64,000 nt of DNA from assembly GCF_003601925.1 (NCBI RefSeq), contig NZ_QZWH01000017.1, positions 1 through 64,000 of the forward strand, given 5' to 3'. Below the pieces are notes generated by a model. That model worked only from the letters and a program-made list of their open reading frames with translations. It was not told the origin of the DNA and searched no databases. Positions 11,064 through 27,971 of this stretch are shown piece by piece. Positions within the stretch are counted from its first letter, which is position 1. The number at the start of each line of letters is the position of its first letter. The translations under genes were made by a program, and so were the position numbers. This stretch comes from Buttiauxella izardii. GTDB lineage: Bacteria; Pseudomonadota; Gammaproteobacteria; Enterobacterales; Enterobacteriaceae.

Positions 11064-12269
11064 TTACCAGTAAAGACTCCACACCTGGCGCACGCGGGCC
11101 AGCGCTTCCAGGTAGAAATAGTCTCCCCAACTACAGCATTCATCCACGCCTTTGCCGCTCGCCATGTGGTAAACCGAGTGTTTCAGCAACCCTTCGCATG
11201 GCTCATCGTCACGCGCGAGGTAGTTATCGGTCAGCGACTGAATAATACGCAGCGCCATTTCTTCGTAATGGGCGCGATGTTCATCCAGCACCGGCAACAC
11301 TTTCACCAGTTCAAGCAATCCGCAAGCGGTGATCGCCGCGGCTGAACTGTCGCGTACCGCGTCGGTGCCAAGCAGCGCCAGATCCCAATGGCAAACATCA
11401 TCTTCCGGCAGGCGGTTGATAAAGTAATGCGCCAGACTGCGGGTGAGATCCACCATACTTTTGTCGCCGGTATACAGGTACGTGAGCAAGAAACCATAGA
11501 TGCCCCACGCCTGCCCGCGCGACCAGCACGAGCTGTCGCTGAAACCCTGGTGCGTGTTACCAAACCGCGGCTCGCCGGTTTTCACATCCATATAATAGGT
11601 ATGGAATGTCGAAGCATCCGGGCGAACAATGTATTTCGCCGCCTGCTCGGCGTGGGCCGTGGCAGCCTGCGCGTAGCGTTCGTCACCCGTTTGCTGGCTT
11701 GCCCAATAAAGCAGCGGAAGGTTCATATTACAGTCAATAATCATCCTTCCCTGTTGTTCTGGATCATTCAAATCGCCCCACGCCTGAATGATTTTCGCTA
11801 CCGGGTTAAAACGCTCCATCAGAATATCTGCCGCCTGTAATGCGGTCTGGCGAGCGGTTTCATTGCCGGTTAAGCGCCAGGCGTTGACGCAGGACAGCGT
11901 ATACAGGAAGCCCAAATCGTGGGTCGCGGTTTCAATACGCTTGTCTAAACGCTGTTTAAAAGAGGGCAAATAACGCTCTGCCGCCTGGCGATATTTTTGA
12001 TCGCCCGTCATCTCCCACGCCAGCCATAATTGACCGGGCCAGAAGCTGGTTGTCCATTCAACGTTGTCAGTCGGTTTCCACTTGCCGCCTTCGCAGGCTT
12101 CGTTAGGGAATTTGTCCCCAACCGCAACAATCGTCTTATCCAGCCTTTTAGTGACACTTTGCAAAGCCGCATCCAGCTTGCGTTTCAGGGCCAGGCGGTC
12201 TACTTGATGCAATTCAATAGGGCGCAGTGGCTCGGTCACAACTTTTTCAGTGACTACAGAACGGGTCAT
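11064..12269 (-). CDS. GH88 unsaturated glucuronyl hydrolase
   Basis: Cytoplasmic glycosidase of family GH88 that removes delta-4,5-unsaturated uronic acid from the non-reducing end of oligosaccharides made by polysaccharide lyases. In the 401 residues, VEWTTSFWPGQLWLAWEMTG (70-89), ATHDLGFLYTLSC with Asp at 118, and MIIDCNMNLPLLYWA with Asp at 179 correspond to the two conserved Asp of the family; SSCWSRGQAWGIYG follows near 250. No signal peptide. It is the last gene of a three-gene minus-strand operon with a LacY-type transporter (13-bp gap) and a DUF2264 enzyme, so the oligomers it cleaves probably enter through that transporter. Confidence 0.9.
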   Translation of the reverse strand: MTRSVVTEKVVTEPLRPIELHQVDRLALKRKLDAALQSVTKRLDKTIVAVGDKFPNEACEGGKWKPTDNVEWTTSFWPGQLWLAWEMTGDQKYRQAAERYLPSFKQRLDKRIETATHDLGFLYTLSCVNAWRLTGNETARQTALQAADILMERFNPVAKIIQAWGDLNDPEQQGRMIIDCNMNLPLLYWASQQTGDERYAQAATAHAEQAAKYIVRPDASTFHTYYMDVKTGEPRFGNTHQGFSDSSCWSRGQAWGIYGFLLTYLYTGDKSMVDLTRSLAHYFINRLPEDDVCHWDLALLGTDAVRDSSAAAITACGLLELVKVLPVLDEHRAHYEEMALRIIQSLTDNYLARDDEPCEGLLKHSVYHMASGKGVDECCSWGDYFYLEALARVRQVWSLYW

Positions 12270-12282
12270 AACGTCTCCTTAA

Positions 12283-13563
12283 TTAATGTTTTACCGGCTC
12301 GACCGGTGAAGTGTCTAAAGCGGGTGAGAATGTATGAGATTCAACGCGTTTTGACTGGCAGCGCGAGAGTGTGAAAGCGGAAATCAGGGTGAAGACCAGC
12401 GCGCAACAGCCCATCATTAAGTAGGTGTGTGCGAAGCCGATTTTGTCGTACAGGTAGCCTGCTGGCGGTGCGACCACCACCGAACCGACGTAAATCATCG
12501 CCTGATAACCCAGCAAATACATGGTGGCGTTGACCTTCTTGTGGAAATGCTCGGCGATGTATTTGAATACGGAGATCAGCAACAGGGCAATTTCAACGCC
12601 GTAGAACGGTTTGATGATAGAAATCACCAGCGGATCGGTGGTCAGGCCGGAAGCAATCAGGCGTAAACCGACCACGCAACCGCACAGCAATAAGCCTTTC
12701 TTCGCGCCGTAATGGTTTACCAGCACCGGGATGAACATCATCATCACAAATTCCATACCGGACTGGATGGTGCTGAGATAACCATACCAGGCGTTGCCCT
12801 GCTCTTTGGTGTCGAAGAACGAGACGAAGTAGCGCGGGAATTGCTGCTCGGCGACAAACATCATCCATGCCACACCTGCAACATACAGGCTGAACATCCA
12901 GAATTTACGGTTTTTCAGCAGCATCAAAACATCGGCAAAGACGATTTTGTTCGCTGAAATCACGTTGTTATTGCGTAGTTGTTCATCGCCAATTTTCAGG
13001 CTGATGAGCACCAGAAGCATTAATAGGGAAGTCGTGCTGCTGACGAGGAAGTTTGCCAGCGGCGTGTAGTTAAACAGCAAACCGGAAACCGATGCCGCCA
13101 TCGCCCAACCGAGCGAACCCCACATGCGGATACGGCCAAATTCCAGGCCATATAAACGGCTGAATCTGTCGGCATAAGATTCTGACGCTGCAACGCCTGC
13201 GTACCAGCCGAGGCTCAGATAAAACGCGCCAATCACAATGCCAATAGTGGTATGCGAGAGCAGCAGCGGTTGATAAACCGTGACGAAAAACGGGGCCATT
13301 AATGCCGAGATGGCGCAGACAAAATAGAGCAGCCATTTGCTCATGCCGATTTTGTCCATGATGTAGCCGTAGACAGGTTTCATCACCACGGCAAAGACGC
13401 CGTTAATCGCAAAAACGCTGCCGATGGTAATGCTGTCTAATCCCACTTTTTGGCTCAACCACAGGGCATACAGCCCGAAGCTTGAAGACCAGGTGAAAAA
13501 GTATAGGAAGATAAAGGTGCTCATTTTTATTTGAGCGGTACGCGTTGGTGTTGAACTATTCAT
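12283..13563 (-). CDS. LacY-type oligosaccharide:H+ symporter (MFS)
   Basis: A 426-residue twelve-segment MFS carrier of the oligosaccharide:H+ symporter group. The segment GLEFGRIRMWGSLGWAMAAS near 145-165 matches the conserved EFGRxRMxGxxGWA region of LacY, and KPVYGYIMDKIGMSKWLL near 60-78 matches the cytoplasmic loop signature after helix 2. It probably imports unsaturated uronic-acid disaccharides for the GH88 enzyme encoded next. Its start overlaps the DUF2264 stop by 4 bp, so the genes are translationally coupled. Confidence 0.85.
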   Translation of the reverse strand: MNSSTPTRTAQIKMSTFIFLYFFTWSSSFGLYALWLSQKVGLDSITIGSVFAINGVFAVVMKPVYGYIMDKIGMSKWLLYFVCAISALMAPFFVTVYQPLLLSHTTIGIVIGAFYLSLGWYAGVAASESYADRFSRLYGLEFGRIRMWGSLGWAMAASVSGLLFNYTPLANFLVSSTTSLLMLLVLISLKIGDEQLRNNNVISANKIVFADVLMLLKNRKFWMFSLYVAGVAWMMFVAEQQFPRYFVSFFDTKEQGNAWYGYLSTIQSGMEFVMMMFIPVLVNHYGAKKGLLLCGCVVGLRLIASGLTTDPLVISIIKPFYGVEIALLLISVFKYIAEHFHKKVNATMYLLGYQAMIYVGSVVVAPPAGYLYDKIGFAHTYLMMGCCALVFTLISAFTLSRCQSKRVESHTFSPALDTSPVEPVKH

Positions 13564-15443
13564 TCATGGTTCTCCAGAAACAATACATGCTTTTGGTGGT
13601 GGCCCATCACCAGGCGTACTGCGCCCTCGCTGATAATGGCTTGCGGACAAGCGTGTTCATCAAAGCCGTCAGAATCCCCTGCCCAAACGGCGCTGATTAA
13701 GAGATGCGTTCCCACGTTTAATTCACCGCGCAGTAGCGGAACGGCTGCACGTTCGGCAAACAATAAGTTGCTGTTTGGCGGAGTTAACACCTGCTCGCCG
13801 GTACGCGGTTGCGGGCTTAAACAAGTGATGGCGCTGGTATCGGTAGCCGTTTTGAGAACGCTGTTTGCCAGCGTCAGATCGGCGTGTGGCAGCGGGCGAT
13901 TAGGCAGGCTAAAGCCGCCTTCGGCGCAATCGAGTTCACGTGCGGTGTTGATGCGATGCACACGCACTTGCCAGTCGCCAAGCGGCACCAGCCAGGTGTC
14001 GATAGTCACGTCGTTCCAAGGCTGCCAGCGGCTATAGATCATGCCGTCGGCGGTGGTGACTTGCTGGCAAGCGCGACGCCCACGCCAATAATCGTCTTTC
14101 TCCGAGAGCAATAACATGGAATCAGGTGCGGCATGGTTTAAGCCGTAGCGCCCACGTTCAATAGTGAAACCGTAGCGTGTGGAATAGGCGAATTTGCAGT
14201 ATTTGGCTTCAGTGTTGACGAAGTTATTCAGCTCGAGTTGCCCGGATGTCACCATCCACAAATGGTTATCCTGGTGAACCACAATTTGCGCAGCGTGAGG
14301 AATGCTGTGTTCCGCTTCACGGGCCGGTAACGGTAATTCTTGTGCCTGCCAGAACGCATAGTTTTCGCCTAACGCCAGCACCAGCATGGTTTTCAGCCCC
14401 CAGTATGGCGAGCCAGGCGCGTTGTAATCTTCCGCCATAATCAGGTTCGGATAGCTGTAACCCACGCTCAATACGCCATCGCGGTCAAACAGCGGTTGTT
14501 GCAACCACCAGCGCAAATGGCGCAGCACAATGCCTTTCACCACTCCAGGTTCGTAGACTTCGAGGCCCGCGAAGGCGGCGGCACTCCAGAAGGCGGCCTG
14601 GGCAAAGCGATAAGTCAGGCTGCGTCCGAACGGAATCGCGGCACCGTCATCCGCGAAGAAATGAATAAAATCACCGGCAAATTCTGTGGCACGCTGGCGC
14701 AATATTTTGCAGCGCTGCGGGTCAACATCGGCCATTAATTTGGCGTAGATCAGCCCGTAAAAATGGAAGCCCATCGAAATGTAGTAATCACGCGGTCGGC
14801 CTGGCCCGTCGGAATACCAGCCATCGCCGAGGTAATAATGCTCCATGGCGGCGAAATGCTTTTCCAGCGCATCGGCATTGTTTGGCATACCGCAATGATG
14901 GAAGCCGACCTGCACCAGAATCGGGAAGAAATGCCAGTTGTTATCCGGGATATCGTGGTTTTCGCTCTGCTTTAACCATTGCCAGAGATTATGTTTCTCC
15001 TGCTCGTTAAAGTGCGCCAGCAGCGGTTTATGCGCCACCGCCAGCATCAATCCGTAGGCTGCCATTTCCACAATACGTTGATCGTAAGGCGCTACTTCAC
15101 CCCAATATTCTGCGTGGTCAGGATTGGTGCCATTTTTTATGGCCTGGATATAAAAAGAGAGTTGCTCTGGTTCATACCCTCCCGCCAGCAGGGGCGTCAC
15201 ACCCCACAATAAACGCGAGAAGGTTTCCATATTGGCAATTTGTTGCCCGTAATGAGCGGTGAAATTTGCCAGGTCGACACCACTGGCCTCTTTTTTAAAG
15301 AATGGCGAAACGGCATTCAATAATTCATTCACCAGTTTATGCAGATCATCCCTGCATTTTAGAGGGTTGTTCAGGGTAATATGTTCAGGTTGCACAATGT
15401 CCTCCCGCCAGACACGAGAATAATCTAAGTTATTGTTATTCAT
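13560..15443 (-). CDS. DUF2264 family protein, probable uronide-active glycosidase
   Basis: A 627-residue protein of the DUF2264 (PF10022) family, predicted alpha/alpha-barrel N-terminal part followed by a beta-rich C-terminal part. Visible family stretches include HNLWQWLKQSENHDIPDNNW, DGWYSDGPGRPRDYYISMGF and EDYNAPGSPYWGLKTMLVLA. I recall members being linked to beta-glucuronidase activity (CAZy GH154), but this assignment should be checked. No signal peptide, so cytoplasmic. First gene of the operon with the LacY-type carrier and GH88; the divergent AraC-type gene starts 180 bp away. Fits a role in stripping uronic acid from imported oligomers. Confidence 0.75.
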   Translation of the reverse strand: MNNNNLDYSRVWREDIVQPEHITLNNPLKCRDDLHKLVNELLNAVSPFFKKEASGVDLANFTAHYGQQIANMETFSRLLWGVTPLLAGGYEPEQLSFYIQAIKNGTNPDHAEYWGEVAPYDQRIVEMAAYGLMLAVAHKPLLAHFNEQEKHNLWQWLKQSENHDIPDNNWHFFPILVQVGFHHCGMPNNADALEKHFAAMEHYYLGDGWYSDGPGRPRDYYISMGFHFYGLIYAKLMADVDPQRCKILRQRATEFAGDFIHFFADDGAAIPFGRSLTYRFAQAAFWSAAAFAGLEVYEPGVVKGIVLRHLRWWLQQPLFDRDGVLSVGYSYPNLIMAEDYNAPGSPYWGLKTMLVLALGENYAFWQAQELPLPAREAEHSIPHAAQIVVHQDNHLWMVTSGQLELNNFVNTEAKYCKFAYSTRYGFTIERGRYGLNHAAPDSMLLLSEKDDYWRGRRACQQVTTADGMIYSRWQPWNDVTIDTWLVPLGDWQVRVHRINTARELDCAEGGFSLPNRPLPHADLTLANSVLKTATDTSAITCLSPQPRTGEQVLTPPNSNLLFAERAAVPLLRGELNVGTHLLISAVWAGDSDGFDEHACPQAIISEGAVRLVMGHHQKHVLFLENHE

Positions 15444-15505
15444 AATTTGTGCACGCTAGTTCAGCGCGTTGATGCAAAGAGTAGTCGCTTTTATTCCTGG
15501 CTCAG

Positions 15506-15521
15506 AGTGAGCCGCATCACA
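15506..15521. promoter_or_regulatory. CRP-like site between the GH88 operon and its regulator
   Basis: AGTGAGCCGCATCACA matches TGTGA-N6-TCACA at 9 of 10 consensus positions. It sits in the 180-bp divergent region, 63 bp from the DUF2264 start, and could serve both promoters. Suggests catabolite control of the cluster. Confidence 0.55.
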
Positions 15522-15623
15522 AAACTAAACCGTTATTTCAATTTCACTGGATTTTTCTATTGGCGGGGGCAATAAATTACAAATCATGGCGTAAAAACTT
15601 AAAATTATTGTCCTGGAGGGGAA

Positions 15624-16493
15624 ATGAGCGAACAGCAATTTATGGAGCGGATTACGCTTGATAGCCAGGTTATCTCATTTCATCGTCTGCGAGCCTCCAG
15701 CGCGCAATATTATCACTGGCATCAGTGCGTTGAGTTTTTATATATTTCAAAAGGATATGGCATTGTGGTGGTCGATAATCAGCATTACACCGCACGGCCT
15801 GGGCGCTTATTTATCTTCCCGCCCTTCCGTTTGCATAAGGTTCATGTGGAAGCCAGCGATAAGAACCAGTATCACCGCACAACGATGCATATCGAGCATA
15901 CGTCGGTGATCGGCACCTTGAATGGTTTCCCACGCCAGCTGGCGCAGTTTTCTGCCCTGGCCGCCAGCAATGCGCCCGCGCAGGTTTACGATTTGAGCGA
16001 ACAAGCTGAATTTATGGATGCCATTCTGGAGCAGTTCGACAAACTGGAGCTTGATGGGCTTTCGACCGCCAGCGATGTGGCGTTTATGGTGATGCAAATT
16101 CTGGCGTTTCTTCCCGCGCAACCGCAAAGATTTATTCAACCACAACAAACGGTTGCATCACAAATCATGCAATGGGTGGAAACTCATTACAGCGAGAAGT
16201 TTTCGCTAGATGAACTGGCACAATCGATTGGTTTATCACGCAGTTATACCTCGCGTATTTTTCGCCAACAGACCGGAGGCAGTATCCACGAATACCTGCT
16301 GACGCGGCGCATCAAGAAAAGTTGTGATTTATTGCGCACCTCGCCGTTGAGCATTGACGCCATCGCCCAGGAAGTCGGTTTTATCGAAGTGACCTACTTT
16401 ATTACCTGTTTTAAAAAAATGATGAGCCAGACCCCGTTGCAATACCGCAAGCAATCGAGAGCGAAATTAGCCGCTGAACAAAATATGATCTAA
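15624..16493 (+). CDS. AraC-family transcriptional regulator
   Basis: A 289-residue regulator with an N-terminal cupin sensing domain (HWHQCVEFLYISKGYGIVVV near 30-50; FIFPPFRLHKVHVEA near 72-86) and two C-terminal helix-turn-helix motifs (FSLDELAQSIGLSRSYTSRI near 195-214; LSIDAIAQEVGFIEVTYFI near 245-263). A good GGAGGGGAA site precedes ATG 15624. It is divergent from the DUF2264-carrier-GH88 operon and probably activates it in response to a uronide; it may also act on the polyuronide locus beyond ftnB. The ligand is unknown. Confidence 0.88.
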   Translation: MSEQQFMERITLDSQVISFHRLRASSAQYYHWHQCVEFLYISKGYGIVVVDNQHYTARPGRLFIFPPFRLHKVHVEASDKNQYHRTTMHIEHTSVIGTLNGFPRQLAQFSALAASNAPAQVYDLSEQAEFMDAILEQFDKLELDGLSTASDVAFMVMQILAFLPAQPQRFIQPQQTVASQIMQWVETHYSEKFSLDELAQSIGLSRSYTSRIFRQQTGGSIHEYLLTRRIKKSCDLLRTSPLSIDAIAQEVGFIEVTYFITCFKKMMSQTPLQYRKQSRAKLAAEQNMI

Positions 16494-16750
16494 AACAATA
16501 AATCAAGGATTAAGAAATTCATTATCTGACGGTGAATCACAATATTGATCATTACATTCCAAATATCCGGGATAATTCTCAAGCGTCATAATTATTTCAT
16601 ATTTTGTTTTTAATGTTTCCCCGCAAGTCAGGTTGTAAATATAGATTAAACGACATAATTAATAGTTCTCCAGATACCTCAAACGGGGTATTATTTTTTG
16701 CGCAACTCCCCAACCTTTACCTGTTGTTCCGCTTCAATAAGGAAATGATT

Positions 16751-17254
16751 ATGGCAACTTCCGGCATGGTTCAAAGACTCAACTTGCAGATTAATCAGGA
16801 TTTTTACTCTTCTAATCTCTACTTAAGATTAAGTCACTGGTGTTCTGAAAAAAGCTTAACTGGCACAGCGACTTTTTTGAGAAATCAGGCGCAGTGCAAT
16901 GTCACGCAGATGATGCGTATATTTAATTTTATGAAGCAGGCGGGCGGCAATCCCATTGTGGGGGCGATTGAATCACCACAAAGTGAATGCGACTCTCTGG
17001 AAATGCTGTTTGAGAAAACCGTCGAAGATTACCAGCAGCGTTGTGCAACTTTAAATAAATTGACCGCAGAGGCGACGGAATTAAAGGATTATCCGACGCT
17101 CAATTTCCTGAAAACAATGGATCGCGAACAGGCAGACGAAGGCGTGTTGCTCAATACGATTCTTGACGAGGTGCGCAGTGCTCGCAAAGCCGGGCTGTGC
17201 ATGAGCCAGACCGACGTGCATCTGACTAATTTAGTGAACCATCAGCAGCATTGA
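16751..17254 (+). CDS. ftnB: Ferritin-like protein FtnB
   Basis: A 167-residue ferritin-fold protein matching E. coli FtnB in length and in the segments [22 protein letters not shown]-type (here [13 protein letters not shown]) and [18 protein letters not shown]. Compared with FtnA, ferroxidase ligands are altered: position 17 is Asp, 50 is Asn and 53 is Gln, while Tyr24 is kept. FtnB also lacks these residues in E. coli and Salmonella, where it is linked to repair of iron-sulfur clusters rather than bulk iron storage. The ATG at 16751 follows AAGGAAATGATT; a longer upstream frame from 16604 is not supported. A backbone gene that now separates two uronide clusters. Confidence 0.92.
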
Positions 17255-17297
17255 TTATATGCACATGGTGGATGACGCTTGCTGTACGACCCGCCAC

Positions 17298-17328
17298 GTA
17301 GGTCGGATAAGCGGCAGCGTCATCCGAC
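17298..17328. repeat. REP element after ftnB
   Basis: Single REP unit beginning GTAGGTCGGATAAGCGGCAG and ending GTCATCCGAC, between the convergent ends of ftnB and the cytoplasmic alginate-lyase-family gene. Confidence 0.85.
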
Positions 17329-17341
17329 AAAAACCATTTTC

Positions 17342-18478
17342 TCAGGCGCACCACATCAATTGTTCGCGCAAACTCAACGCATCTTCCGGGAAACTCGCCA
17401 GCACGGTTTTATATCGCGCCGCCTCTTTCGGATACCCACGCATAGATTGCAGCAATAGGCGCAATGCGCTATCCCAGACGATGCCGTCTAAATCGCGGTA
17501 CGGCCATAAATCCGGATCGGCAATAAACGGCATGAGATAATCAATGCCAAGTTTCACGCTGCGCCCGTCCTGCACCGCATTCCAGCGGTCAAACTCAACA
17601 TGTTCGGCATAGCGATTCAGTAATAAATGAGCTTCGAGGTTAAACAATGAATAATGGAACGGCACCGGGCGCTCCAGTTCCATGGTTTGCTTTCCTTCCT
17701 GGTCGATTTGCGCCGCCATGCGTTGGGTTATCCCCTGCTGAATAATGCGCGCCACCAGCCCTTTGTCTCCGTAGAAAAGCGCATTCACCGCGCGCTGGGC
17801 GTCATACCAGGTGCCGTGGTTGTTATGCCAGACGTATTCCGAATGACCGACGTCGCTGAAGAACATCCAGTGGTTGAAATCCCGGAACCACTGATGCAAA
17901 CCAATAATATCGTCGGTGTCGAGGACGCTGGCATCGCTGATAAGCCCGATAGTGTCGATCACCATCCATAACAGGCGTGTATCGATTAGCCCGGTGCCGC
18001 GCCCGGAGACAATCCCCGGAATCGCCTGGCCGTAATTCAGATGCGGGTTCATGCGCGTGGCTTCATCAAGGAACCAGCACTTGATTTGCTCCGCCGCTGC
18101 CAGGGCGTATTTGCGTTGACCGGTGAAATACCACGCCAGCCCGAGCGTCAGGCTGCGTTCACACATGCGAATAATGCGTGTGGTGTCGGTGTCATTGTTC
18201 TGGCATTGCGGGTTGGTATGCCCGTCGCGGCGGATATACGGCAGGCCATTTGGCCTGCGCGGATTAGGCCACCAGTAGGTTCCCAGGCTGTAATAGTCGT
18301 GCGGGTCACCACTCACCGGGCGGAGCTTTTTATGCACCACGCTTTCGGGTGGCTGTCCACGGAGTTTATCCGCCTCGCTCACCAGCCGCCCCAGCGCCAG
18401 TTGCAGCGGGGAAAAAGGTTGCTGCAAACCACGGCGGGCGCTCTCCAGGCACGTGACATCCAGGGTGTATAACTTCAT
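17342..18478 (-). CDS. Alginate-lyase-family protein, cytoplasmic (PL38/PF05426-like)
   Basis: A 378-residue alpha/alpha-toroid polysaccharide lyase of the Alginate_lyase family (PF05426). Conserved stretches are DYYSLGTYWWPNPRRPNGLP (about 60-80), RMNPHLNYGQAIPGIVSGRG (about 140-160), VWHNNHGTWYDAQ (about 222-234) and RPVPFHYSLFNLEAHLLLNR (about 275-295), the latter two holding the His/Asn/Tyr that act in beta-elimination in this fold. No signal peptide, so it should act on imported oligomers. ATG 18478 lies 6 bases after AAGGAG. Last gene of the ABC-transporter operon. The exported gene at 23205 is a paralogue. Substrate may be alginate or glucuronan. Confidence 0.8.
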   Translation of the reverse strand: MKLYTLDVTCLESARRGLQQPFSPLQLALGRLVSEADKLRGQPPESVVHKKLRPVSGDPHDYYSLGTYWWPNPRRPNGLPYIRRDGHTNPQCQNNDTDTTRIIRMCERSLTLGLAWYFTGQRKYALAAAEQIKCWFLDEATRMNPHLNYGQAIPGIVSGRGTGLIDTRLLWMVIDTIGLISDASVLDTDDIIGLHQWFRDFNHWMFFSDVGHSEYVWHNNHGTWYDAQRAVNALFYGDKGLVARIIQQGITQRMAAQIDQEGKQTMELERPVPFHYSLFNLEAHLLLNRYAEHVEFDRWNAVQDGRSVKLGIDYLMPFIADPDLWPYRDLDGIVWDSALRLLLQSMRGYPKEAARYKTVLASFPEDALSLREQLMWCA

Positions 18479-18491
18479 CAATCACTCCTTC

Positions 18492-20430: not shown

Positions 20431-20440
20431 GGGCAGCTCC

Positions 20441-21325
20441 TTAATAGCGGGCAATGCGCTTTTTCAGCGTGAGGTGACAAATCGTCAGCACCACGGTGAA
20501 GGCGAATAACAGGAACGACACCGCCGAAGCATAGCCGTAGTCAAATTGCTCAAAACCGAGTTTGTAGATGTGCGTCATGATCATCTCCGTTGCACCCGAA
20601 GGCCCGCCGCCGGTGGTGGCATACACCTCCGCAAACACGCGGAAACCACGGATAAACGACAGCATCAGCACCACAGAAATCGCCGGAATCATGCCGGGCA
20701 AGGTGACGTAGCGCAGGCGATTCCACCAGTTCGCACCGTCAACGTTTGAGGCGTCGTACAAATCACGGCTGATACCCGCCAGCCCGGCGATAAATATCAC
20801 CATGTTGTACGGCACCGCTTTCCAGATATGCAGCAACATAATCACCCACAGCGCCTGGTCCGAACTGGCGAGGAAGCCCTGGTCGGCAACACCGAACCAA
20901 CTCAGAATATGGTTCACGACCCCGTTTGGCGTGGGGTTAAACAGGATGCGCCACATTTCCGCGACAATCGCCGCACTGGTGACTGCAGGCAGGAAGATCG
21001 CGGTGCGGATAAAACGCAGATGGCGAGCCGGGCCTTCGAGCAACATCGCCAGAAAGAACGCCAGCACCGCGCCAACCACCATCGTCACGACGACATATAG
21101 GAAGGTATTGAAAACTGCCGAATGCAGTTCGATATCGGCAAACGCGCGGGCAAAGTTAGCAAACCCAACCCATTCATCTGGCTGATTGAAATTCACTTTG
21201 TAAAAACTCATCACCAGCCCTTGCAGCATCGGGATGAATTTAAACCAGGTGAAAATGACCAGTGCCGGAGCCAGGAAGATCCACGGCACCAGATTTCGTT
21301 TCTGGCGAGAAGTTAACATCGTCAT
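20441..21325 (-). CDS. Carbohydrate ABC transporter permease (MalF/UgpA type)
   Basis: First permease of the CUT1 importer, 294 residues with six membrane segments starting at WIFLAPALVIFTWFKF. The EAA loop is DLYDASNVDGANWWNRLRYV near 205-225. It lies 88 bp downstream of the binding-protein gene, a gap that holds a palindromic repeat, and 10 bp before the second permease gene. Confidence 0.9.
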   Translation of the reverse strand: MTMLTSRQKRNLVPWIFLAPALVIFTWFKFIPMLQGLVMSFYKVNFNQPDEWVGFANFARAFADIELHSAVFNTFLYVVVTMVVGAVLAFFLAMLLEGPARHLRFIRTAIFLPAVTSAAIVAEMWRILFNPTPNGVVNHILSWFGVADQGFLASSDQALWVIMLLHIWKAVPYNMVIFIAGLAGISRDLYDASNVDGANWWNRLRYVTLPGMIPAISVVLMLSFIRGFRVFAEVYATTGGGPSGATEMIMTHIYKLGFEQFDYGYASAVSFLLFAFTVVLTICHLTLKKRIARY

Positions 21326-21358: not shown

Positions 21359-21400
21359 CCTCACCCAGGCCCTCTCACTGAGGGATAGGTCTGGGTGAGG
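21359..21400. repeat. Palindromic intergenic element between binding-protein and permease genes
   Basis: CCTCACCCAG and CTGGGTGAGG form a perfect 10-bp inverted repeat, with an inner CCCTC/GAGGG pair. This C-rich hairpin type recurs in enterobacterial intergenic spaces. It may raise the ratio of binding protein to permease by stabilising the upstream message. Confidence 0.6.
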
Positions 21401-21413
21401 GCGAGGAGAAAAC

Positions 21414-22709
21414 TTACTTCGCCAACACCTGCTGTTTGGCAAGTTCAGCGTTGACCTTCTCGTTGGTGGCTTTCAGCTCGGCGGAAATATCGCTGCCACA
21501 GTCCGCGAGAATACGGTTGAAACCATCCGCGGTGACCTGGCGGATTGGCGTCCAATTCGGTACTTGTGGCACATAACGGCCTTCGTTGGCGTAGAGGCTG
21601 GCGAACGTCGCCCAGCGTTCGTCGTTATAGACCGCCTGCGTATCCACATTTTTATTCACCGGCAAACGCACCACCGGCATATGCTTGCTGCCTTTGCCCA
21701 TGCCGATTTCCTGCCCTTCCTGGGAAATCATAAATTCGATGAACTTACGCGCAGCCTCTTTGTTCTTGCTGCTTTTCATCATGAATACCGTGGTGCCTTC
21801 GGCTAACGTGGCGCTGTTTTTCGGGCCTTCCAGCGTCACGACTTCAAACTTGTCTTTGCCGGGATCTTTATCGAATAGCGCGATGTGATACGGCCCGGTA
21901 AAGAACATGCCGGTTTGGCCGGAACGGAATGAAGGAATAATGTCGGCAGTGGTGGCGTTAATCGCGCCTGGCTGAACCACTTTTTCGCACAACATGCCGC
22001 GCATAAACTGCAGAGTTTCGGTGGCTGCTGGCTCGTCGAGTGAGGCCTTGAACGTGCCTTTGGTCGCCCCTTCACGGATAAAATCACCCCCGGCTTGCCA
22101 CAGGAATGCACTCATAAACCAGCTGGCATACCCGCGCGTGGTGGAACCTGGCAATAAGAAGCCGTAGGTGTCGTTTTTGCCATTGCCGTCAGGGTCTTGC
22201 GTGGTGAAGGCTTTTGCCAGTTTCTCGACATCGCTCCAGGTTTTTGGCGCAGGCATTCCGAGCTTTTCACGCCAGTCTTTGCGCACAAACAGCGCAAAGG
22301 TTTGAGCGGATGTGGGCACGCCATAGTATTTACCGTCGGTATAACGGGTACTTTCCCAGGCTGTGGGATAGAGGTTATCGCCACCGGCTATGGTTTTAGG
22401 GTCGATTTCTTCGGCGATGCCAAGCTGGATAAATTGCCCCATCGCGACGGCGTCATTAAAGATAAGATCGGGCAACGCATTCCCGGCTGCCGCGCGGGCG
22501 AGTCGCTGCTCGAAGTCGGTAGTCGCATTAAAATATTCAATTTTAATGCCGGTCTTTTTCTCAAAGGTTTCCGCTTCTTGCTTGTAGATATTTTTTGAAT
22601 CATTGCTAGCACGAATCCACACATTCAGTGTTTCTGCTGCAAAGGTTTGTGAGGCACTAAACCCCAGTGCGGATATCAGTAATACGGATTTTAATTTTGT
22701 AGGGAACAT
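21414..22709 (-). CDS. Extracellular sugar-binding protein of ABC importer
   Basis: A 431-residue family 1 solute-binding protein with a Sec signal peptide (MFPTKLKSVLLISALGFSAS, cleavage about after TFA at 24). The mature part begins ETLNVWIRASNDSKNIYKQE and has the typical two-lobe pattern with DPDGNGKNDTYGFLLPGSTT, which resembles a calcium-binding loop, near 150-170, and GQTGMFFTGPYHIALFDKDP near 265-285. It is the first gene of the operon and would capture uronic-acid oligosaccharides in the periplasm. Family resemblance is to UgpB/TogB-like proteins; the ligand is inferred from the lyase genes around it. Confidence 0.88.
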   Translation of the reverse strand: MFPTKLKSVLLISALGFSASQTFAAETLNVWIRASNDSKNIYKQEAETFEKKTGIKIEYFNATTDFEQRLARAAAGNALPDLIFNDAVAMGQFIQLGIAEEIDPKTIAGGDNLYPTAWESTRYTDGKYYGVPTSAQTFALFVRKDWREKLGMPAPKTWSDVEKLAKAFTTQDPDGNGKNDTYGFLLPGSTTRGYASWFMSAFLWQAGGDFIREGATKGTFKASLDEPAATETLQFMRGMLCEKVVQPGAINATTADIIPSFRSGQTGMFFTGPYHIALFDKDPGKDKFEVVTLEGPKNSATLAEGTTVFMMKSSKNKEAARKFIEFMISQEGQEIGMGKGSKHMPVVRLPVNKNVDTQAVYNDERWATFASLYANEGRYVPQVPNWTPIRQVTADGFNRILADCGSDISAELKATNEKVNAELAKQQVLAK

Positions 22710-23204
22710 TTATTTTCACGTCCTTATTTTAAGTAATTTGAATATTGAATAAATGGAGTGAAGCAGATTATTTTCGGTAAAGGAAAAGCTGCCCGATAAT
22801 TAAATAGAATGCAGGTTTTAAACACAACCGCCTAAAACAGAAATACCGTTTCACAATGCAAAAATGTGTCGAAAGTCACATGAAAATACAGAACCAAAAA
22901 CACATAAAAAATAAAAACCCACAAATACAGCAAGTTACCAAATTTAACGAAATTAACATTTTTTAAAATTATGTTTAAAACCATTGATTTTCGTGATGTG
23001 AAACCCATTTTTTGCGGTCATTTAGCATCCCGAACTGTAATTTGAACTCCGTCACACAAAAATTTATTCCGCCTCTTACACTGCGCAGGAAACATCAATG
23101 ATATTATTTCCAATCTGATCGTTGATGATTATTAATAACCCCTAAAGTTAATCAGGTGATATTTCTGTCGCCTGCAATTTATTCTACCGATGGACGGAGA
23201 AAAT
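22710..23204. other. Divergent control region of the polyuronide locus
   Basis: A 495-bp noncoding region between the ABC operon (minus) and the exported lyase gene (plus). It is strongly AT-rich and has a CRP-like site at 22865-22880. I see no ORF with a ribosome-binding site apart from the two flanking starts. A regulator of this half of the system is not encoded next to it. Confidence 0.6.
22865..22880. promoter_or_regulatory. CRP-like site in the lyase/ABC divergent region
   Basis: TGTGTCGAAAGTCACA matches TGTGA-N6-TCACA at 9 of 10 positions. It is 155 bp upstream of the binding-protein ATG and 325 bp from the exported lyase gene. Confidence 0.5.
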
Positions 23205-24443
23205 ATGTGCCCGACAAAACCCACTTTATTGTCCTGCCTGTCATTAATTTCCCTGGCTGTTGCAGGTGTATTAACTGCCTCGCCGTTGTATGCCGCCGAT
23301 GCACATCCGCTGCAAATAAAACTCGATGATTTACGCTACAGCAAGGAACAGGTTAAAGCACAAAATCCGCAGTTTATCGGTGCGTACCAAAAACTGATTT
23401 CCGGGGCGGATAAAGCGCTGACTAAACCGCTGTATTCGGTGATGGATAAAACCCTGGTCGCCGCCAGCGGCGATAAGCACGACTACTACAGTTTCCCACC
23501 GTACTGGTGGCCGGATCCAAACAAAAAAGATGGCCTGCCCTATATCCGCAAAGACGGTCAGACCAATCCCGATGCCAACAGCGACGCCACGGACAAAAAA
23601 CGCCTGGTCAACATGAGCAATGACGTGTGGACGCTGGCGCTGGCGTGGCAATTCACACAAAACCCAGCGTACGCCGAAAAGGCCCGCGATCAGCTGCTGA
23701 ACTGGTTCGTGAAGCCAGAAACGCGCATGAACCCAAATCTACAACACGCCCAGGCCATTCCGGGCGTTAATGACGGGCGTGGAATCGGGCTGATTGATAG
23801 CCGTGCATTAGTTGAAGTGATTGATGCCGTAGAACTATTACGCCCGGCGAATATGATCAGCGATGAAGATTATCAGAAGATAAAACAGTGGTATGGCGAT
23901 TTTTATCAGTGGATGACCACCAGCCAGAACGGTTTTGAAGAAGATAACTGGCATAACAATCACGGCACTTATTTTGATTTGCAGGCTGCGTCATTTGCCT
24001 TGTTTAGCGGTGATACTGCTGCTGCCAAAAAGCGTCTGCAAATTACGCAGCTACGCCGGATCCCTTCCCATTTTGACAAAGAAGGCCGTCAGATGGCTGA
24101 AATTGAGCGCACACGCCCGTGGCATTACAGCAATTTCCACCTGGAGGCTTACAACAAACTCGGGCGCTTAGGGGAAGTTGCCGGTGAGGATGTGTGGAAC
24201 GTCAACGTTGACGGCCGTAGCTTGCGTAAGGGCTACACCTATGTCGCTAATTTCGTGAATAGCAACGAAACCTGGCCATGGAAAGATATTGATAAAATGG
24301 ATGATAAAAAAGCATTGGTGAATATGGTGAGCGCCGCACGGGCGTGGCCTGACGACAAGTTATTTGCCGAGAAAGCGCAGTGGCTTATGGCGAAATATCC
24401 GGACGATATTTCTCATCTTATTACCCCATTAAAACCACACTGA
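23205..24443 (+). CDS. Exported alginate-lyase-family protein (PL38/PF05426-like)
   Basis: A 412-residue paralogue of the lyase-family protein encoded at 17342. A Sec signal peptide (LSLISLAVAGVLTASPLYAA, ending near residue 31) sends it to the periplasm or beyond. Shared motifs are DYYSFPPYWWPDPNKKDGLP, RMNPNLQHAQAIPGVNDGRG, NWHNNHGTYFDLQ and RTRPWHYSNFHLEAYNKLGR, in the same order. ATG 23205 follows GGAG by 5 bases and is preferred over the ATG at 23190. Likely makes the first cuts in a uronic-acid polysaccharide. The heparinase-family gene starts 20 bp after its stop, so they share a transcript. Confidence 0.8.
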   Translation: MCPTKPTLLSCLSLISLAVAGVLTASPLYAADAHPLQIKLDDLRYSKEQVKAQNPQFIGAYQKLISGADKALTKPLYSVMDKTLVAASGDKHDYYSFPPYWWPDPNKKDGLPYIRKDGQTNPDANSDATDKKRLVNMSNDVWTLALAWQFTQNPAYAEKARDQLLNWFVKPETRMNPNLQHAQAIPGVNDGRGIGLIDSRALVEVIDAVELLRPANMISDEDYQKIKQWYGDFYQWMTTSQNGFEEDNWHNNHGTYFDLQAASFALFSGDTAAAKKRLQITQLRRIPSHFDKEGRQMAEIERTRPWHYSNFHLEAYNKLGRLGEVAGEDVWNVNVDGRSLRKGYTYVANFVNSNETWPWKDIDKMDDKKALVNMVSAARAWPDDKLFAEKAQWLMAKYPDDISHLITPLKPH

Positions 24444-24463
24444 TTGAGAATAAGGATCGAGCG

Positions 24464-26482
24464 ATGAAGCAGTTCACCACGCAACAACTTATTCTTCTTC
24501 GGCAACGTGTTAACCAACAGCCAGCATTCATTGAGCAACTGATTACCGATAATTCAGTGGTGCTGGGCAACCCGGTGCAAGTACCCGAAACGGCAGTAGC
24601 CACCTGGAACCTTTATTATTACTGCCCTGACCACGGCGTCAGGCTGGTCTGGGACAAAAATGCCCCGACTTCTCATTGCTGCCCAATTGACGGGCAGCGG
24701 TTTAGCGGCGAGCCATACGACGGAGCCTGGTGGCGCGAACTCAACGGGCTGAATGCCAAAGCCTGTCATCAGCTCGGCATTTTATGGCGGTTAACCGGGG
24801 AGCAAATTTACCTCGATAAAGTCCGTGATTTACTGCTGCGCTACGCCGAGTTTTACCCAGGCTACGCCATCCACGGCGGTATTCCTTATAACGGGCCGGG
24901 CAAAATGAACGCCCAGACGCTGTGCGAAGCCAATTGCCTGCTGGATTTCACCCTCGGATTTGATTGCATCAATGAAGCACTGACAAACGAGCAACGCGAA
25001 TACATCACCACTCGCCTGTTGCGAGAAGGTGCGCAATTTCTGATGGCCCACCGCACCGCACAACTCCATAACCATGAAGTCAAGATTGGCTGCACCGTCG
25101 GGGTTTTGGGGCTGGTGCTGGAAGAGGATGAACTGCTGGAGTTTGCCGTTAACCAGCCTTACGGGTTGCGTTATCAACTTGAACATGGGCTGTTCGATGA
25201 AGGGTTATGGTTCGAGGGGTCGGTTCATTATCATTTCTACGCTCTGCAAGGGTTCCTGGCGTTTGAAAAGCTGGCGATGGGCACACGCTGGAGCCTGCTC
25301 GATGAACCGTACTATAAAAAAATGCTCAGTTTCCCGCTGACGTTGCTGATGCCCGATGGCACTTTCCCGCGCATCAATGATTGTATTTACGGCCAGGAAA
25401 AACTCGATCACAGCCATCTTTATGAATTTGCCTGGTTCTACTACCAGGAACCGCAGTACGCCGCCGCACTAAAGGTGATTAATCAGCAACATCCGCACCC
25501 GAATCTGGATGCGCTTATCTATACCCGACCGCTGCCAGAACAGGTTCCCGAACTGATTCCCGGTGGGCATTTGCACGCCCCGGACTGCGGCCTGACTATC
25601 TGGCGCAACCCGCAAAAGAGACGTGCACTGTTGGTAAAACACACGCCTTACGGTGGCGAGCATGACCACTACGATCGCCTGAATCTTGTGCTGTTTAATG
25701 GCGCAGAAGAAATATTGCCCGACCTTGGAACCACGGGTTACGGCGCGCCGATGCATTATGCATATTACAAAAATAGCGCCACGCACAATACGGTTACGGT
25801 TAACCAGACGAATCAACCGCCTGCCATTCCTGTAGTGCGCCAATACTATGAAAGCGAAGCATTTTGCTGGCTCGATAGCGAAGTGGACTGGCGACAAACC
25901 CCGCCGGAGCTGGACAGCCACACCCGCGTGCAATGGGATGTTGAGGCCTGGCGCGATGTGCGTTTCCGCCGCCGTTTACTGTGGCTGGACAACGCCTTAA
26001 TTGACATCAGCAACGTGCAAAACCCGCATCGCCAGCAGCTCGACTGGACACTGCATCTCAAGGGAAAAGCGCTTGATGTTGAAGGCGAACGGGTGACATT
26101 CTGCCCCAACGGCCCGCTCGCGATTATGCAGGATGCACATTGCGTTCAGTTGAAGAATAGCCAGCCACGAAATTTTGGCAGCGCACACAATGGGCAGGCT
26201 TTGTGGCTACACGGGCAGGCCGAGCTCTGGCAAGGCAAAGCACCGGATAATCCGGCGGTGAAAGACCTGAGTTATGTTGTGTTACGCAGCCATGAACCCA
26301 GCCCCGAGTTTGTCTGCGTGTGGGATTTCGACAACTCACAACCGATAACAGATATGCAGGTCACGCCGGATAATAGCGGTATGCGTATTGCGCTAAAACG
26401 CGGTGAGAACGTGTTACTGATTGATATTGCCAGCGACGAAACAAAGCTTCCTCGCCTTCAGCATTCGCACATTCCTCTCTAA
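24464..26482 (+). CDS. Heparinase II/III-family lyase (PL15-like oligouronide lyase)
   Basis: A 672-residue protein with an alpha/alpha-toroid N-terminal part and a heparinase II/III C-terminal beta-sheet part. A CPDH...SHCCP segment (residues 50-75) looks like a small zinc-binding knuckle. HNHEVKIGCTVGVLGLVLEE (near 200) and YGGEHDHYDRLNLVLFNGAE (near 400-420) contain the His/Tyr expected in the active site, followed by KNSATHNTVTVNQTNQ near 450. The layout resembles exo-type oligoalginate lyases (PL15/PL17). No signal peptide, so it should degrade imported oligomers to unsaturated monomers. Start ATG 24464 is chosen because the upstream frame overlaps the previous gene. Confidence 0.8.
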   Translation: MKQFTTQQLILLRQRVNQQPAFIEQLITDNSVVLGNPVQVPETAVATWNLYYYCPDHGVRLVWDKNAPTSHCCPIDGQRFSGEPYDGAWWRELNGLNAKACHQLGILWRLTGEQIYLDKVRDLLLRYAEFYPGYAIHGGIPYNGPGKMNAQTLCEANCLLDFTLGFDCINEALTNEQREYITTRLLREGAQFLMAHRTAQLHNHEVKIGCTVGVLGLVLEEDELLEFAVNQPYGLRYQLEHGLFDEGLWFEGSVHYHFYALQGFLAFEKLAMGTRWSLLDEPYYKKMLSFPLTLLMPDGTFPRINDCIYGQEKLDHSHLYEFAWFYYQEPQYAAALKVINQQHPHPNLDALIYTRPLPEQVPELIPGGHLHAPDCGLTIWRNPQKRRALLVKHTPYGGEHDHYDRLNLVLFNGAEEILPDLGTTGYGAPMHYAYYKNSATHNTVTVNQTNQPPAIPVVRQYYESEAFCWLDSEVDWRQTPPELDSHTRVQWDVEAWRDVRFRRRLLWLDNALIDISNVQNPHRQQLDWTLHLKGKALDVEGERVTFCPNGPLAIMQDAHCVQLKNSQPRNFGSAHNGQALWLHGQAELWQGKAPDNPAVKDLSYVVLRSHEPSPEFVCVWDFDNSQPITDMQVTPDNSGMRIALKRGENVLLIDIASDETKLPRLQHSHIPL

Positions 26483-26486: not shown

Positions 26487-26510
26487 ACACTCCGCCACCA
26501 GGCGGAGTGT
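26487..26510 (+). terminator. Hairpin after the heparinase-family gene
   Basis: ACACTCCGCC/GGCGGAGTGT is a perfect 10-bp inverted repeat with loop ACCA, 4 bp after the stop codon. No strong U-run follows. Confidence 0.55.
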
Positions 26511-26627
26511 TAACAAAATGTTATTAACCATCTGTTTTCATTGAATTTTAACATTTAAGATCTGTGTCTCATTGGTAATCCTTACATTCTGTAATGCTAA
26601 AGCAATACCTAACGTTAAGGGATTACC

Positions 26628-27971
26628 ATGATAACCATTGAATTTATTGTCATTATTTTATGTCTTCTGGTTGGAACGCGTTTTGGCGGGATGGGGCTGG
26701 GCCTGATCAGTGGGATTGGGCTGTTTATCCTGACCTTTATTTTTGGCCTGGAGCCAGGCAAACCGCCGGTTGACGTGATGCTCACCATTCTGGCGGTGAT
26801 TGGCTGCGCGGCTACATTGCAGACGGCAGGCGGCCTGAATGTGATGATGCAGTTCGCGGAACGGCTCCTGCGCAAACATCCTCAACACATTACGCTACTT
26901 GCCCCTTTCACCACCTGGATGCTGACGTTCCTGTGCGGCACCGGCCATGTTGTTTACACCATGTTCCCGATCATTGCCGATATCGCGCTTAAAAAAGGCA
27001 TTCGCCCGGAACGCCCAATGGCGGTGGCGTCGATTGCCTCGCAAATGGCGATTACGGCCTCTCCGGTTTCGGTGGCGGTGGTTTCGCTGATTTCGATTCT
27101 GGCGGCGAATCATGGTATCGGCCACGCGTGGGGCATCCTCGATATTCTTTGCGTTTCCGTCCCCGCGTCGTTATTTGGCGTGCTAATTGCTGCGCTGTGG
27201 AGTTTACGCCGCGGTAAGGATTTGGAAGATGACGAGGAATTTCAGGAGAAGTTGAAAGACCCGAAACAGCGTGAGTTTATCTACGGCAGCAGCGAAACGC
27301 TGATGAACCAGGTGTTCCCAAAACAAGCCTACTGGTCGACGTGGATTTTCTTCGCCGGGATTTTAGTGGTGGTGTTATTGGGGGCGATTCCCGCATTGCG
27401 CCCGGCCTTTGAAATTAAAGGCTCGCTCAAGCCGCTGTCGATGAATCTGGTGATTCAGATGATGATGTTGATTGCCGGTGCGGTGATGCTGATGGTGTGC
27501 AAAGTGAATGCTTCCGCCATCTCCAACGGTGCGGTATTTAAAGCCGGGATGGTGGCGATTTTCTCGGTGTTTGGCGTGGCATGGATGAGCGACACGTTTT
27601 TCCAGGCGCATCTGGAAGAGCTGAAAATGGCACTGGAAGGCGTGGTGAAAAGCCATCCGTGGACGTATGCCATCGTGCTATTTTTAGTATCAAAACTGGT
27701 GAATAGCCAGGCCGCCGCGTTAACCGCCGTGGCTCCGATGGGGTTGATGTTAGGCGTTGAGCCGAAAATGCTGATTGCCTTCTTCCCGGCATCCTACGGT
27801 TACTTTGTACTGCCGACTTATCCAAGCGATTTAGCGTGTATCGGCTTCGACCGTTCCGGCACCACCAGGATTGGCAAGTTCATCATTAACCACAGTTTCA
27901 TTTTGCCAGGATTGATCGGTGTGAGTTGTGCGTGTGCGGCGAGTTATTTGTTGGTGATGACGTTCTTCTAA
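26628..27971 (+). CDS. Dcu-family C4-dicarboxylate carrier (DcuA/DcuB type)
   Basis: A 447-residue inner-membrane carrier of the Dcu family, which exchanges fumarate, malate, aspartate and succinate during anaerobic growth. The family signatures EPGKPPVDVMLTILAVIGC (about 43-61), LTFLCGTGHVVYTMFPIIAD (about 100-120), RPERPMAVASIASQMAITAS (about 126-146) and FVLPTYPSDLACIGFDRSGT (about 390-410) are all clear. The length equals DcuB. It is downstream of the lyases but separated by 145 bp and a hairpin, so it may be independently transcribed. It may export or exchange a C4 acid end product; whether it carries a uronate-derived acid instead cannot be told. Confidence 0.88.
   Translation: MITIEFIVIILCLLVGTRFGGMGLGLISGIGLFILTFIFGLEPGKPPVDVMLTILAVIGCAATLQTAGGLNVMMQFAERLLRKHPQHITLLAPFTTWMLTFLCGTGHVVYTMFPIIADIALKKGIRPERPMAVASIASQMAITASPVSVAVVSLISILAANHGIGHAWGILDILCVSVPASLFGVLIAALWSLRRGKDLEDDEEFQEKLKDPKQREFIYGSSETLMNQVFPKQAYWSTWIFFAGILVVVLLGAIPALRPAFEIKGSLKPLSMNLVIQMMMLIAGAVMLMVCKVNASAISNGAVFKAGMVAIFSVFGVAWMSDTFFQAHLEELKMALEGVVKSHPWTYAIVLFLVSKLVNSQAAALTAVAPMGLMLGVEPKMLIAFFPASYGYFVLPTYPSDLACIGFDRSGTTRIGKFIINHSFILPGLIGVSCACAASYLLVMTFF

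Follow-up and report, generated by a model that had tools for sequence, protein, structure and literature searches.

The locus lies in a 64,000-nucleotide stretch of Buttiauxella izardii DNA (the window), in which every gene named by the first-pass annotation is present in its place as an intact open reading frame with an agreeing Pfam match (Table 1). Two gene sets flank the ferritin-like gene ftnB, whose product shares 61% identity with E. coli FtnB. Cassette 1 (module 1) consists of the AraC, DUF2264, LacY and GH88 genes; cassette 2 (module 2) consists of the genes for a PL38, an ABC importer, an apparently exported second PL38 and a heparinase-fold lyase. The description of two divergent modules around ftnB holds for gene content, but each module is itself internally divergent. 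Likely start codons, judged by alignment and by eye, make ftnB (16751), the ATPase (19580) and the lyase (24464) shorter than their longest open reading frames.

Table 1. Genes of the Buttiauxella izardii locus, with positions in the window
Feature	Position	Strand	Match or evidence
DJ-1/PfpI-family gene, adjoins GH88	10461..11024	-	DJ-1_PfpI 110 bits (Pfam)
GH88 unsaturated glucuronyl hydrolase (UGL)	11064..12269	-	PF07470 60.8 bits
LacY-family carrier	12283..13563	-	PF01306 LacY_symp 349 bits
DUF2264 + DUF2264_C protein, predicted beta-D-glucuronate dehydratase ('GH154')	13560..15443	-	Pfam 402.5 + 144.8 bits
AraC-family regulator, divergent from module 1	15624..16493	+	HTH_AraC 74 bits
ftnB, ferritin-like, between modules	16751..17254	+	Ferritin 82 bits (Pfam)
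PL38-type lyase, no signal sequence seen by eye	17342..18481	-	PF05426 'Alginate_lyase' 246 bits
ABC importer ATPase, UgpC/MalK type	18492..19580	-	Pfam 122 bits; NCBIfam NF008653 480 bits (cut-off 432)
ABC permease	19591..20454	-	PF00528 BPD_transp_1 74 bits; gene order conserved
ABC permease	20441..21325	-	PF00528 BPD_transp_1 46 bits; gene order conserved
Solute-binding protein of importer, signal sequence by eye	21414..22709	-	PF01547 138 bits
PL38-type lyase, signal sequence by eye (exported)	23190..24443	+	PF05426 'Alginate_lyase' 266 bits
Heparinase-fold lyase, PL17-like, no signal sequence by eye	24464..26482	+	Hepar_II_III_C 64 bits
DcuA/DcuB-type C4-dicarboxylate carrier	26628..27971	+	PF03605 DcuA_DcuB 499 bits

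In module 1, the DUF2264 protein is predicted to be a beta-D-glucuronate dehydratase, a family formerly named GH154. All ten active-site residues of the Bacteroides caccae dehydratase BcGDH are identical in an alignment-based pairing (E74, R78, N176, N177, W178, F181, Y229, R285, Y289 and Y354), and nine are invariant across 15 sequences, with N176 replaced by Ser in three. The structural model matches 8oi4 (Z 28.6; rmsd 3.7; 347 residues aligned), 9o4u (Z 27.1) and 9nwf (Z 26.6), with the next family at 18.2. The GH88 protein scores 358 bits by phmmer to the UGL 1vd5 and has Asp at both positions aligned with D88 and D149, which we take to be catalytic; its nearest relatives are UGLs of Bacillus and Streptococcus, among them one titled an unsaturated chondroitin disaccharide hydrolase. 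The carrier is 33% identical to E. coli LacY, whose functional residues we take to be E126, R144, E269, R302, H322 and E325. It retains E126, R144, R302, K319 and E325 and has the changes E269S, N272E and H322Y; E269S and H322Y led us to reject a lactose permease despite the LacY_symp match, and the protein probably imports an oligosaccharide. The first-pass annotation had set GH88 and the lyases in one line, but across 26 module-1 loci the steady partners of GH88 are the DUF2264 protein, the probable dehydratase, and the LacY-type carrier. The likely job of module 1, judged from these families and residues, would be to bring in a GlcA-tipped oligosaccharide, dehydrate its terminal GlcA and release it by GH88. 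Dehydrate-first removal of glucuronate is a route already shown in gut Bacteroides: in the available text of PMC12269599, BcGDH processes chondroitin together with GH88 and PL35, and BT_3677 is reported to act on beta-1,6-GlcA and to dehydrate 1-O-methyl-beta-D-glucuronate.

In module 2, the lyases were assigned from solved relatives and folds rather than CAZy models. Both PF05426 proteins qualify as PL38, in that their closest solved relatives include a PL38 and the counterparts of BoPL38 His243 and Tyr298 are kept (H222 and Y277 in the protein lacking a visible signal sequence, H258 and Y313 in the other). They score 246 and 250 bits, respectively, to their closest solved relative, BACOVA_01668 (3nfv/3nnb), for which we found no activity report, and 197 and 168 bits to BoPL38 (8bdq). 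Within the accessible parts of the literature, CUL-I and TpPL38A are active on glucuronan, BoPL38 and Aly38A on alginate, and RiPL38 on hyaluronan and weakly on chondroitin sulfate (PMC13027841, PMC9029943, PMC13169297); a figure legend gives Amuc_0771 as active on hyaluronan/chondroitin. The first five share their Pfam family and catalytic His/Tyr with the window pair, which differs from characterised PL38s in consisting of paralogues, only one of them carrying a visible signal sequence.

The heparinase-fold lyase scores 86.6 bits by phmmer to Alg17c, and its model superposes on that enzyme with Z 30.4 (rmsd 2.9; 592 residues aligned), with the PL40 ulvan lyase 9vtk close (Z 29.1). The counterparts of Alg17c N201, H202, Y258, H413 and H415 are invariant in 17 sequences. 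Assignment as an oligoalginate lyase (NCBIfam NF042990) was rejected at 93.5 bits against a curated cut-off of 1400; another protein of the same genome, encoded next to SDR, SSS and ManD genes, is nearer that model at 421 bits, also below the cut-off. Exactly one relative, 60-62% identical, occurs in 19 of 25 Yersinia genomes and none in the other six, a comparison made between genomes rather than with the Ypes3069 and Yent36911 sequences themselves. We consider the lyase very probably a member of PL17 subfamily 1 (PL17_1) and very probably orthologous to these two Yersinia proteins. Since the three lyases resemble PL38 (twice) and PL17 with catalytic residues kept, none appears to fall outside the polysaccharide lyases, the family outcome that would have refuted the first-pass annotation, and from families and residues the proposed uronic-acid catabolism looks right for both halves of the locus.

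What the accessible sections of PMC5966431 say of PL17 bears on substrate. Subfamily 2 comprises exo-mannuronate lyases, whereas all five tested members of subfamily 1 were inactive on alginates; OPIT5_27565 is a glucuronan lyase, Acid4041 is a hyaluronan lyase, and Ypes3069 and Yent36911 degraded none of the tested substrates. These included hyaluronan, chondroitin, heparosan, xanthan, gellan, ulvan and citrus pectins; polyglucuronate is absent from the substrate section, although it is reported for other enzymes in the same paper. Because the screen measured reducing ends released from polymers, an enzyme confined to short oligomers could be missed. Gene order connects the window lyase with PL38 and an ABC importer, and in vibrios the lyase with UxaC. 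These links, a difference from the screened members of this very probably shared family, suggest a substrate that the screen did not reveal.

The first-pass annotation treated the two modules as one split locus, but the conservation of the genes does not bear this out. Cassette 1 stands on its own in 24 of 26 other Enterobacteriaceae loci, and among the loci examined the cassettes are adjacent only in Buttiauxella. The "split locus" is two separate uronate cassettes side by side, found apart in the other enteric genomes examined; as each gene set recurs as a unit across many genera, neither is a chance assembly. The AraC gene lies divergently beside DUF2264 in 23 of the 26 loci and is co-oriented in one more, and the DJ-1/PfpI gene, possibly an extra module-1 member in the closest relatives, adjoins GH88 in nine and in one K. 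aerogenes record. All seven module-2 genes occur together in 36 of 80 lyase loci (Buttiauxella, Serratia, Yersinia, Klebsiella, Raoultella, Kluyvera and others). The exported PL38 had no match in 22 of the 80 and occurs without ABC genes in 22; in 20 of the latter the neighbourhood includes a KdgM porin, a KdgF-like cupin or a carrier of the MFS or SSS type, and the other two are truncated. A KdgM gene is absent from all 36 ABC-type loci, yet it lies beside the cytoplasmic PL38 in two of 13 loci of that family. ftnB belongs to neither module and was not beside module 2 in 11 loci of other genera holding the block. Nor does the Dcu-family carrier keep its proposed membership: found at module 2 in six of 80 lyase loci, all Buttiauxella, and near module 1 in two of 26, it is probably a bystander.

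Elsewhere in the Buttiauxella genome we found the four genes for which the first-pass annotation had proposed a search (kduI, kduD, kdgK and eda), as well as KdgF-like and KdgM genes, but not UxaC; the window holds no convincing KdgR site. Of the 80 lyase loci, 21 encode UxaC (glucuronate isomerase) near the lyase, none of them in enterics, and in 18 of these it lies at most 100 bp upstream on the same strand; one such neighbour was confirmed by Pfam (584 bits). A V. cyclitrophicus plasmid carries kduD, kdgR, KdgM, PL38, two SSS genes, uxaC and the lyase together. To our knowledge, UxaC does not act on mannuronate or guluronate, and its position makes glucuronate (or galacturonate) a better candidate than alginate. 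However, a PL38 is present in only five of the 21 loci and the ABC cassette was scored in none, which makes this a clue to the lyase, not to the Buttiauxella cassette. Among the 25 genomes that have a full-length lyase, 21 also carry DUF2264, compared with 48 of the remaining 221 (Fisher p 1e-9), or 15/16 against 32/138 by genus (p 4e-8), statistics that treat relatives as independent and make no correction for genome size in a sample including genomes of 0.5-2 Mb; the 25 exclude one genome with a lyase fragment and no DUF2264.

The gene content, family matches, catalytic residues, predicted folds, conservation as units and downstream genes observed here allow us to propose reactions, transport steps, protein locations, a substrate and a way for the modules to cooperate. 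Our leading, though still tentative, explanation is that two uronate cassettes meet at this locus, a glucuronan-type lyase and import path in module 2 and a dehydratase-GH88 path in module 1, both feeding the Kdu path. The exported PL38 would cut a polymer rich in beta-1,4-glucuronate, the Ugp/Mal-type importer would take up the unsaturated oligomers, and the cytoplasmic PL38 and PL17-like lyase would finish them to 4-deoxy-5-ketouronate, which KdgF, KduI, KduD, KdgK and Eda could convert to pyruvate and glyceraldehyde-3-phosphate. In module 1, the LacY-type symporter would import a GlcA-tipped oligosaccharide, DUF2264 would remove water from its saturated terminal beta-GlcA to give a delta-4,5 residue, and GH88 would hydrolyse this residue; as the product would join the same path, neither beta-glucuronidase nor UxaC would be needed. 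A glucuronan-like polymer is our tentative best guess for module 2, and the Yersinia negatives count against it. The substrate had been left open among glucuronan, alginate and a plant or algal glucuronate polymer; a glucuronate polymer has become more likely and alginate less so.

A quite possible competing account is that module 1 is unconnected with polymers and handles small beta-glucuronides, such as GlcA-beta-1,6-Gal of arabinogalactan proteins, which would enter through its carrier. The occurrence of module 1 alone, the retained LacY E126 and R144 and the reported substrates of BT_3677 fit this account, whereas the co-occurrence of lyase and DUF2264 and the alteration of other LacY sugar-site residues do not. 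At the other end of the range, the least probable reading is that module 2 takes part, as an accessory system, in the use of oligogalacturonate (pectin). Galacturonate catabolism also employs UxaC and KdgM, and in one locus the lyase has an oligogalacturonate lyase gene in its neighbourhood, but KduD, KdgM, ABC importer and Ogl-like genes form a region of their own in the Buttiauxella genome (Ogl and importer assigned by eye), the accessible literature on PL38 and PL17 yielded no galacturonan-active enzyme, and the negative Yersinia screen listed citrus pectins (PMC5966431).

Breakdown of a GAG-like or other GlcA heteropolymer (hyaluronan, chondroitin, heparosan, a capsule, or a glycan of fungi or plants), with PL38 making the cuts and DUF2264 and GH88 completing the breakdown, is unlikely, although RiPL38 activity, the BcGDH chondroitin route and the nearest GH88 relatives all speak for it. 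Neither a hexosaminidase nor a sulfatase gene is present in the two cassettes, the cassettes are separate in other genomes, and the Yersinia proteins were inactive in a screen that listed several such polymers. A single alginate locus, with PL38 and PL17 cutting the polymer and the ABC system importing oligoalginate, seems to us more doubtful still. The name of PF05426, the activities of BoPL38, Aly38A and PL17 subfamily 2, and Alg17c as the best fold match would favor it, but against it stand the very probable orthology with PL17_1 proteins, the UxaC neighbours and the better NF042990 score of another protein of the genome.

The proposed two-cassette arrangement offers a testable substrate idea for enteric PL17 subfamily 1 enzymes that the published screen, as far as its accessible text goes, left without one (PMC5966431). 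It also adds Enterobacteriaceae to the probable hosts of the recently described glucuronate-dehydratase route; 70 of 246 sampled genomes have a DUF2264 match. If that route operates in these bacteria, models of uronate catabolism and beta-glucuronidase-centred views of glucuronide cleavage would need an extra branch. A bolder and rather improbable extension is that many Enterobacteriaceae have a second route for opening beta-D-glucuronides, perhaps including small host- or plant-derived ones, fed by the LacY-type carrier and proceeding by DUF2264 dehydration and GH88 hydrolysis without beta-glucuronidase or UxaC. If so, this route would escape assays and inhibitors that target beta-glucuronidase.

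Several known systems resemble parts of this locus. The TogMNAB/Ogl/KdgM oligogalacturonide system of enterobacteria combines an exported lyase, ABC import, a cytoplasmic lyase and the Kdu path, the same logic as module 2 with other lyase families, and a region of that appearance exists separately in the Buttiauxella genome. Plasmid loci of Rhizobium phaseoli and R. binae bring together DUF2264, GH88, a sugar ABC importer and heparinase II/III, a similar functional mix, but their heparinase is only 24% identical to the window lyase over 164 residues, and neither PL38 nor LacY is annotated there. The BcPL35-BcGDH-BcGH88 chondroitin pathway of B. caccae PUL25, as described in the available text of PMC12269599, has in common with cassette 1 a DUF2264-type dehydratase with the same ten active-site residues and a GH88. 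Unlike PUL25, the Buttiauxella cassette lacks PL35 and GH109 and combines a two-domain, apparently cytoplasmic DUF2264 protein with a LacY-type carrier and an AraC regulator.

The region consists of two cassettes rather than one split locus. Every gene named in the first-pass annotation is present as an intact ORF at the position given there, and its family names were upheld by profile searches and comparison, but its proposal of a single split locus is not supported, as in the loci examined from other genera each cassette recurs without the other. The window belongs to contig 17 of a 4.77 Mb genome, and among the best 80 of 199 loci its lyase locus is nearest to six named Buttiauxella records (79–88% identical). 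Among 25 loci with a relative of the heparinase-like gene fetched from other genomes (L034–L058, one a fragment), the module 2 block was found by tblastn in 13, two from the same genus and 11 from other genera, and only in the two same-genus loci do GH88, LacY, DUF2264 and AraC stand beside it. Of the 80 named lyase loci (the best 80 of 199, in part from shared genomes), 36 have the full set of ABC genes plus the two PL38s, and 58 have the exported PL38. Conversely, AraC, LacY and GH88 accompany DUF2264 in 24 of 26 DUF2264 loci drawn from 25 other genomes (70 genomes matched in all), the exceptions being L117, with GH88 and DUF2264 only, and L118, with DUF2264 and a distant AraC match farther off; the PL38 and lyase queries had no match in any of these 26 loci (16 kb each).

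Positions of the features discussed, in the window and elsewhere in the genome
Feature	Record	Position	Content
Module 1	window	11064–16493	GH88, LacY-type carrier, DUF2264, divergent AraC
Module 2	window	17342–26482	PL38 without signal sequence by eye (PL38c), ATPase, two permeases, SBP, divergent from exported PL38 (PL38s), PL17-like lyase
Dcu carrier	window	26628–27971	DcuA/DcuB-type carrier
Dipeptide-type ABC transporter	window	29156–31950	named by eye
Heparinase-fold/ManD cluster	contig C4	about 11900–18700 (L059 8424–15191)	second heparinase-fold protein, GntR, SDR, SSS, ManD
Oligogalacturonide region	contig C4	127500–147000 (L134)	KdgF-like cupin, sugar ABC importer (by eye), KduD, KdgM, two oligogalacturonate-lyase-like genes (by eye)

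A Dcu carrier 94–95% identical to that of the window adjoins module 1 in two other genomes (L094 and L097), so that Dcu and module 1 may long have been neighbours. The transporter genes that follow the region are ordinary. Base composition gave no strong signal of recent transfer, which was set aside (51–53% GC in the modules and Dcu against 49% in the window). Near matches to the region occur in 22 of 5,426 E. coli genomes, the 20 listed spanning only part of the ATPase gene, and E. coli has no distant match to 11064–14800.

The enzymes of module 2 resemble polysaccharide lyases. Solved PL38 structures are among the matches of the two PF05426 proteins, which in alignment both keep the His and Tyr given for BoPL38 in PMC13169297. 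The lyase model (mean pLDDT 86) matches PL17 enzymes with Z 28.9–30.4 over 592–598 residues and a PL40 ulvan lyase with Z 29.1, and 17 relatives show no variation at the counterparts of Alg17c N201, H202, Y258, H413 and H415. A second gene like PL38s, 60% identical, directly follows the lyase in loci of Cedecea sp. (L156) and Klebsiella sp. (L167). Plasmid records from Vibrio, Enterobacter and Klebsiella variicola (H37–H44; L218, L219) also hold relatives of the lyase, and the V. cyclitrophicus plasmid with such a relative also carries kduD, kdgR, KdgM, PL38, SSS and uxaC.

All catalytic and transport steps, protein location and the substrate are what we infer here. UxaC, whose substrates are glucuronate and galacturonate, is encoded in 21 of the best 80 of 199 lyase loci, directly upstream of the lyase in 18; the other neighbours in these 80 include KdgM (16), SSS carriers (21), a KdgF-like cupin (15) and a KduD-like gene more than 60% identical (14). 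Alginate monomers are not known to be UxaC substrates, so a pure alginate substrate is unlikely for the lyase. We regard an alginate-utilisation locus as improbable; that module 2 is a pectin (oligogalacturonate) system, despite the galacturonate accepted by UxaC, seems slightly more improbable.

A glucuronan-like polymer is our favoured but tentative suggestion for module 2, one we think somewhat likelier to be wrong than right. Glucuronan-active members exist in PL38 and in PL17_1, and PMC5966431 describes cleavage of polyglucuronate by OPIT5_27565 and of hyaluronan by Acid4041. The main evidence against this substrate is a negative screen in the same paper, in which the PL17 subfamily 1 proteins Ypes3069 and Yent36911 of Yersinia had no substrate found. 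These proteins are very probably orthologues of the window lyase, since 19 of 25 Yersinia genomes hold one relative and six hold none, an assignment made from these genome counts. The 21 UxaC loci (among the best 80 of 199) are all outside the enterics and none has the ABC cassette; just five hold PL38, which weakens both the glucuronan suggestion and our overall reading of two uronate cassettes meeting, with a glucuronan-like substrate for module 2, a reading we hold at slightly below an even chance.

In module 1, DUF2264 is the family formerly called GH154. The model of the window protein (AlphaFold2, mean pLDDT 81) matches three solved family members with Z 26.6–28.6 over its first domain, the next family reaching Z 18.2, and its two-domain chain also aligns with a GAG lyase (486 residues, Z 15.8). 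In PMC12269599, BcGDH is a beta-D-glucuronate dehydratase producing GH88 substrates and BT_3677 dehydrates 1-O-methyl-beta-D-glucuronate; the window protein is identical at all ten BcGDH residues mutated there. GH88 matches the unsaturated glucuronyl hydrolase 1vd5 with 358 bits and keeps both Asp residues. Neither GH88 nor DUF2264 has a signal sequence by eye, and their chemistry is therefore probably cytoplasmic. In the LacY-type carrier, N272 and H322 are changed alike in all 12 sequences compared and E269 is S, N or A; the carrier keeps residues that serve in proton coupling. E269S, N272E and H322Y rule out a true galactoside permease.

A downstream path is encoded elsewhere in the genome, where the search proposed earlier for kduI, kduD, kdgK and eda found all four (KduI 87%, KduD 89% and 81%, KdgK 83% and Eda 95% identical to E. 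coli), together with a KdgF-like cupin (75% to a relative's) and one KdgM porin. In the fetched family loci, a KdgF-like cupin lies near the lyase in three and a KdgM porin in nine, two of which (L040, L041) also hold the ABC cassette. E. coli UxaC had no match in this genome in one search without a positive control; the four other E. coli queries gave 83–95% matches. Judging from that single uncontrolled search, DUF2264 and GH88 could feed terminal GlcA to the Kdu path in place of UxaC. On contig C4, the second heparinase-fold protein scores 421 bits against the oligoalginate lyase model, below its cut-off, and the neighbouring ManD mannonate dehydratase 677 bits, above cut-off; this cluster may serve the genome as its alginate/mannuronate route, in which the SDR would produce mannonate.

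Cooperation of the two modules is plausible. Of the 25 genomes that encode a full-length lyase, 21 have DUF2264, compared with 48 of the other 221, and by genus the figures are 15 of 16 and 32 of 138; this co-occurrence is inflated by relatedness and by small genomes in the sample. Plasmids of Rhizobium phaseoli and R. binae (L222, L223) bring DUF2264, GH88, YesL, a sugar ABC importer, a heparinase and a carbohydrate-binding protein together in one locus, which was ruled out as a module 2 homologue because the heparinase is just distantly related; in the S. meliloti stretch, the queries used matched DUF2264 alone. A search with a KdgR consensus covered the whole window together with 37 SBP–PL38 intergenic regions, its own plus those of 36 further loci; in the window's SBP–PL38 region it gave nothing better than six mismatches, and several relatives (for example, some Serratia and Yersinia) had KdgR-like sites with 3–4. 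Candidate CRP-like sites with one mismatch are present.

Among the papers listed in searches of the open-licence PMC literature, we found no description of the PL38-ABC-PL17 cassette of enterics, of a self-standing DUF2264-LacY-GH88 operon in Enterobacteriaceae or of the UxaC-lyase link of vibrios; every enzyme family here is already known.
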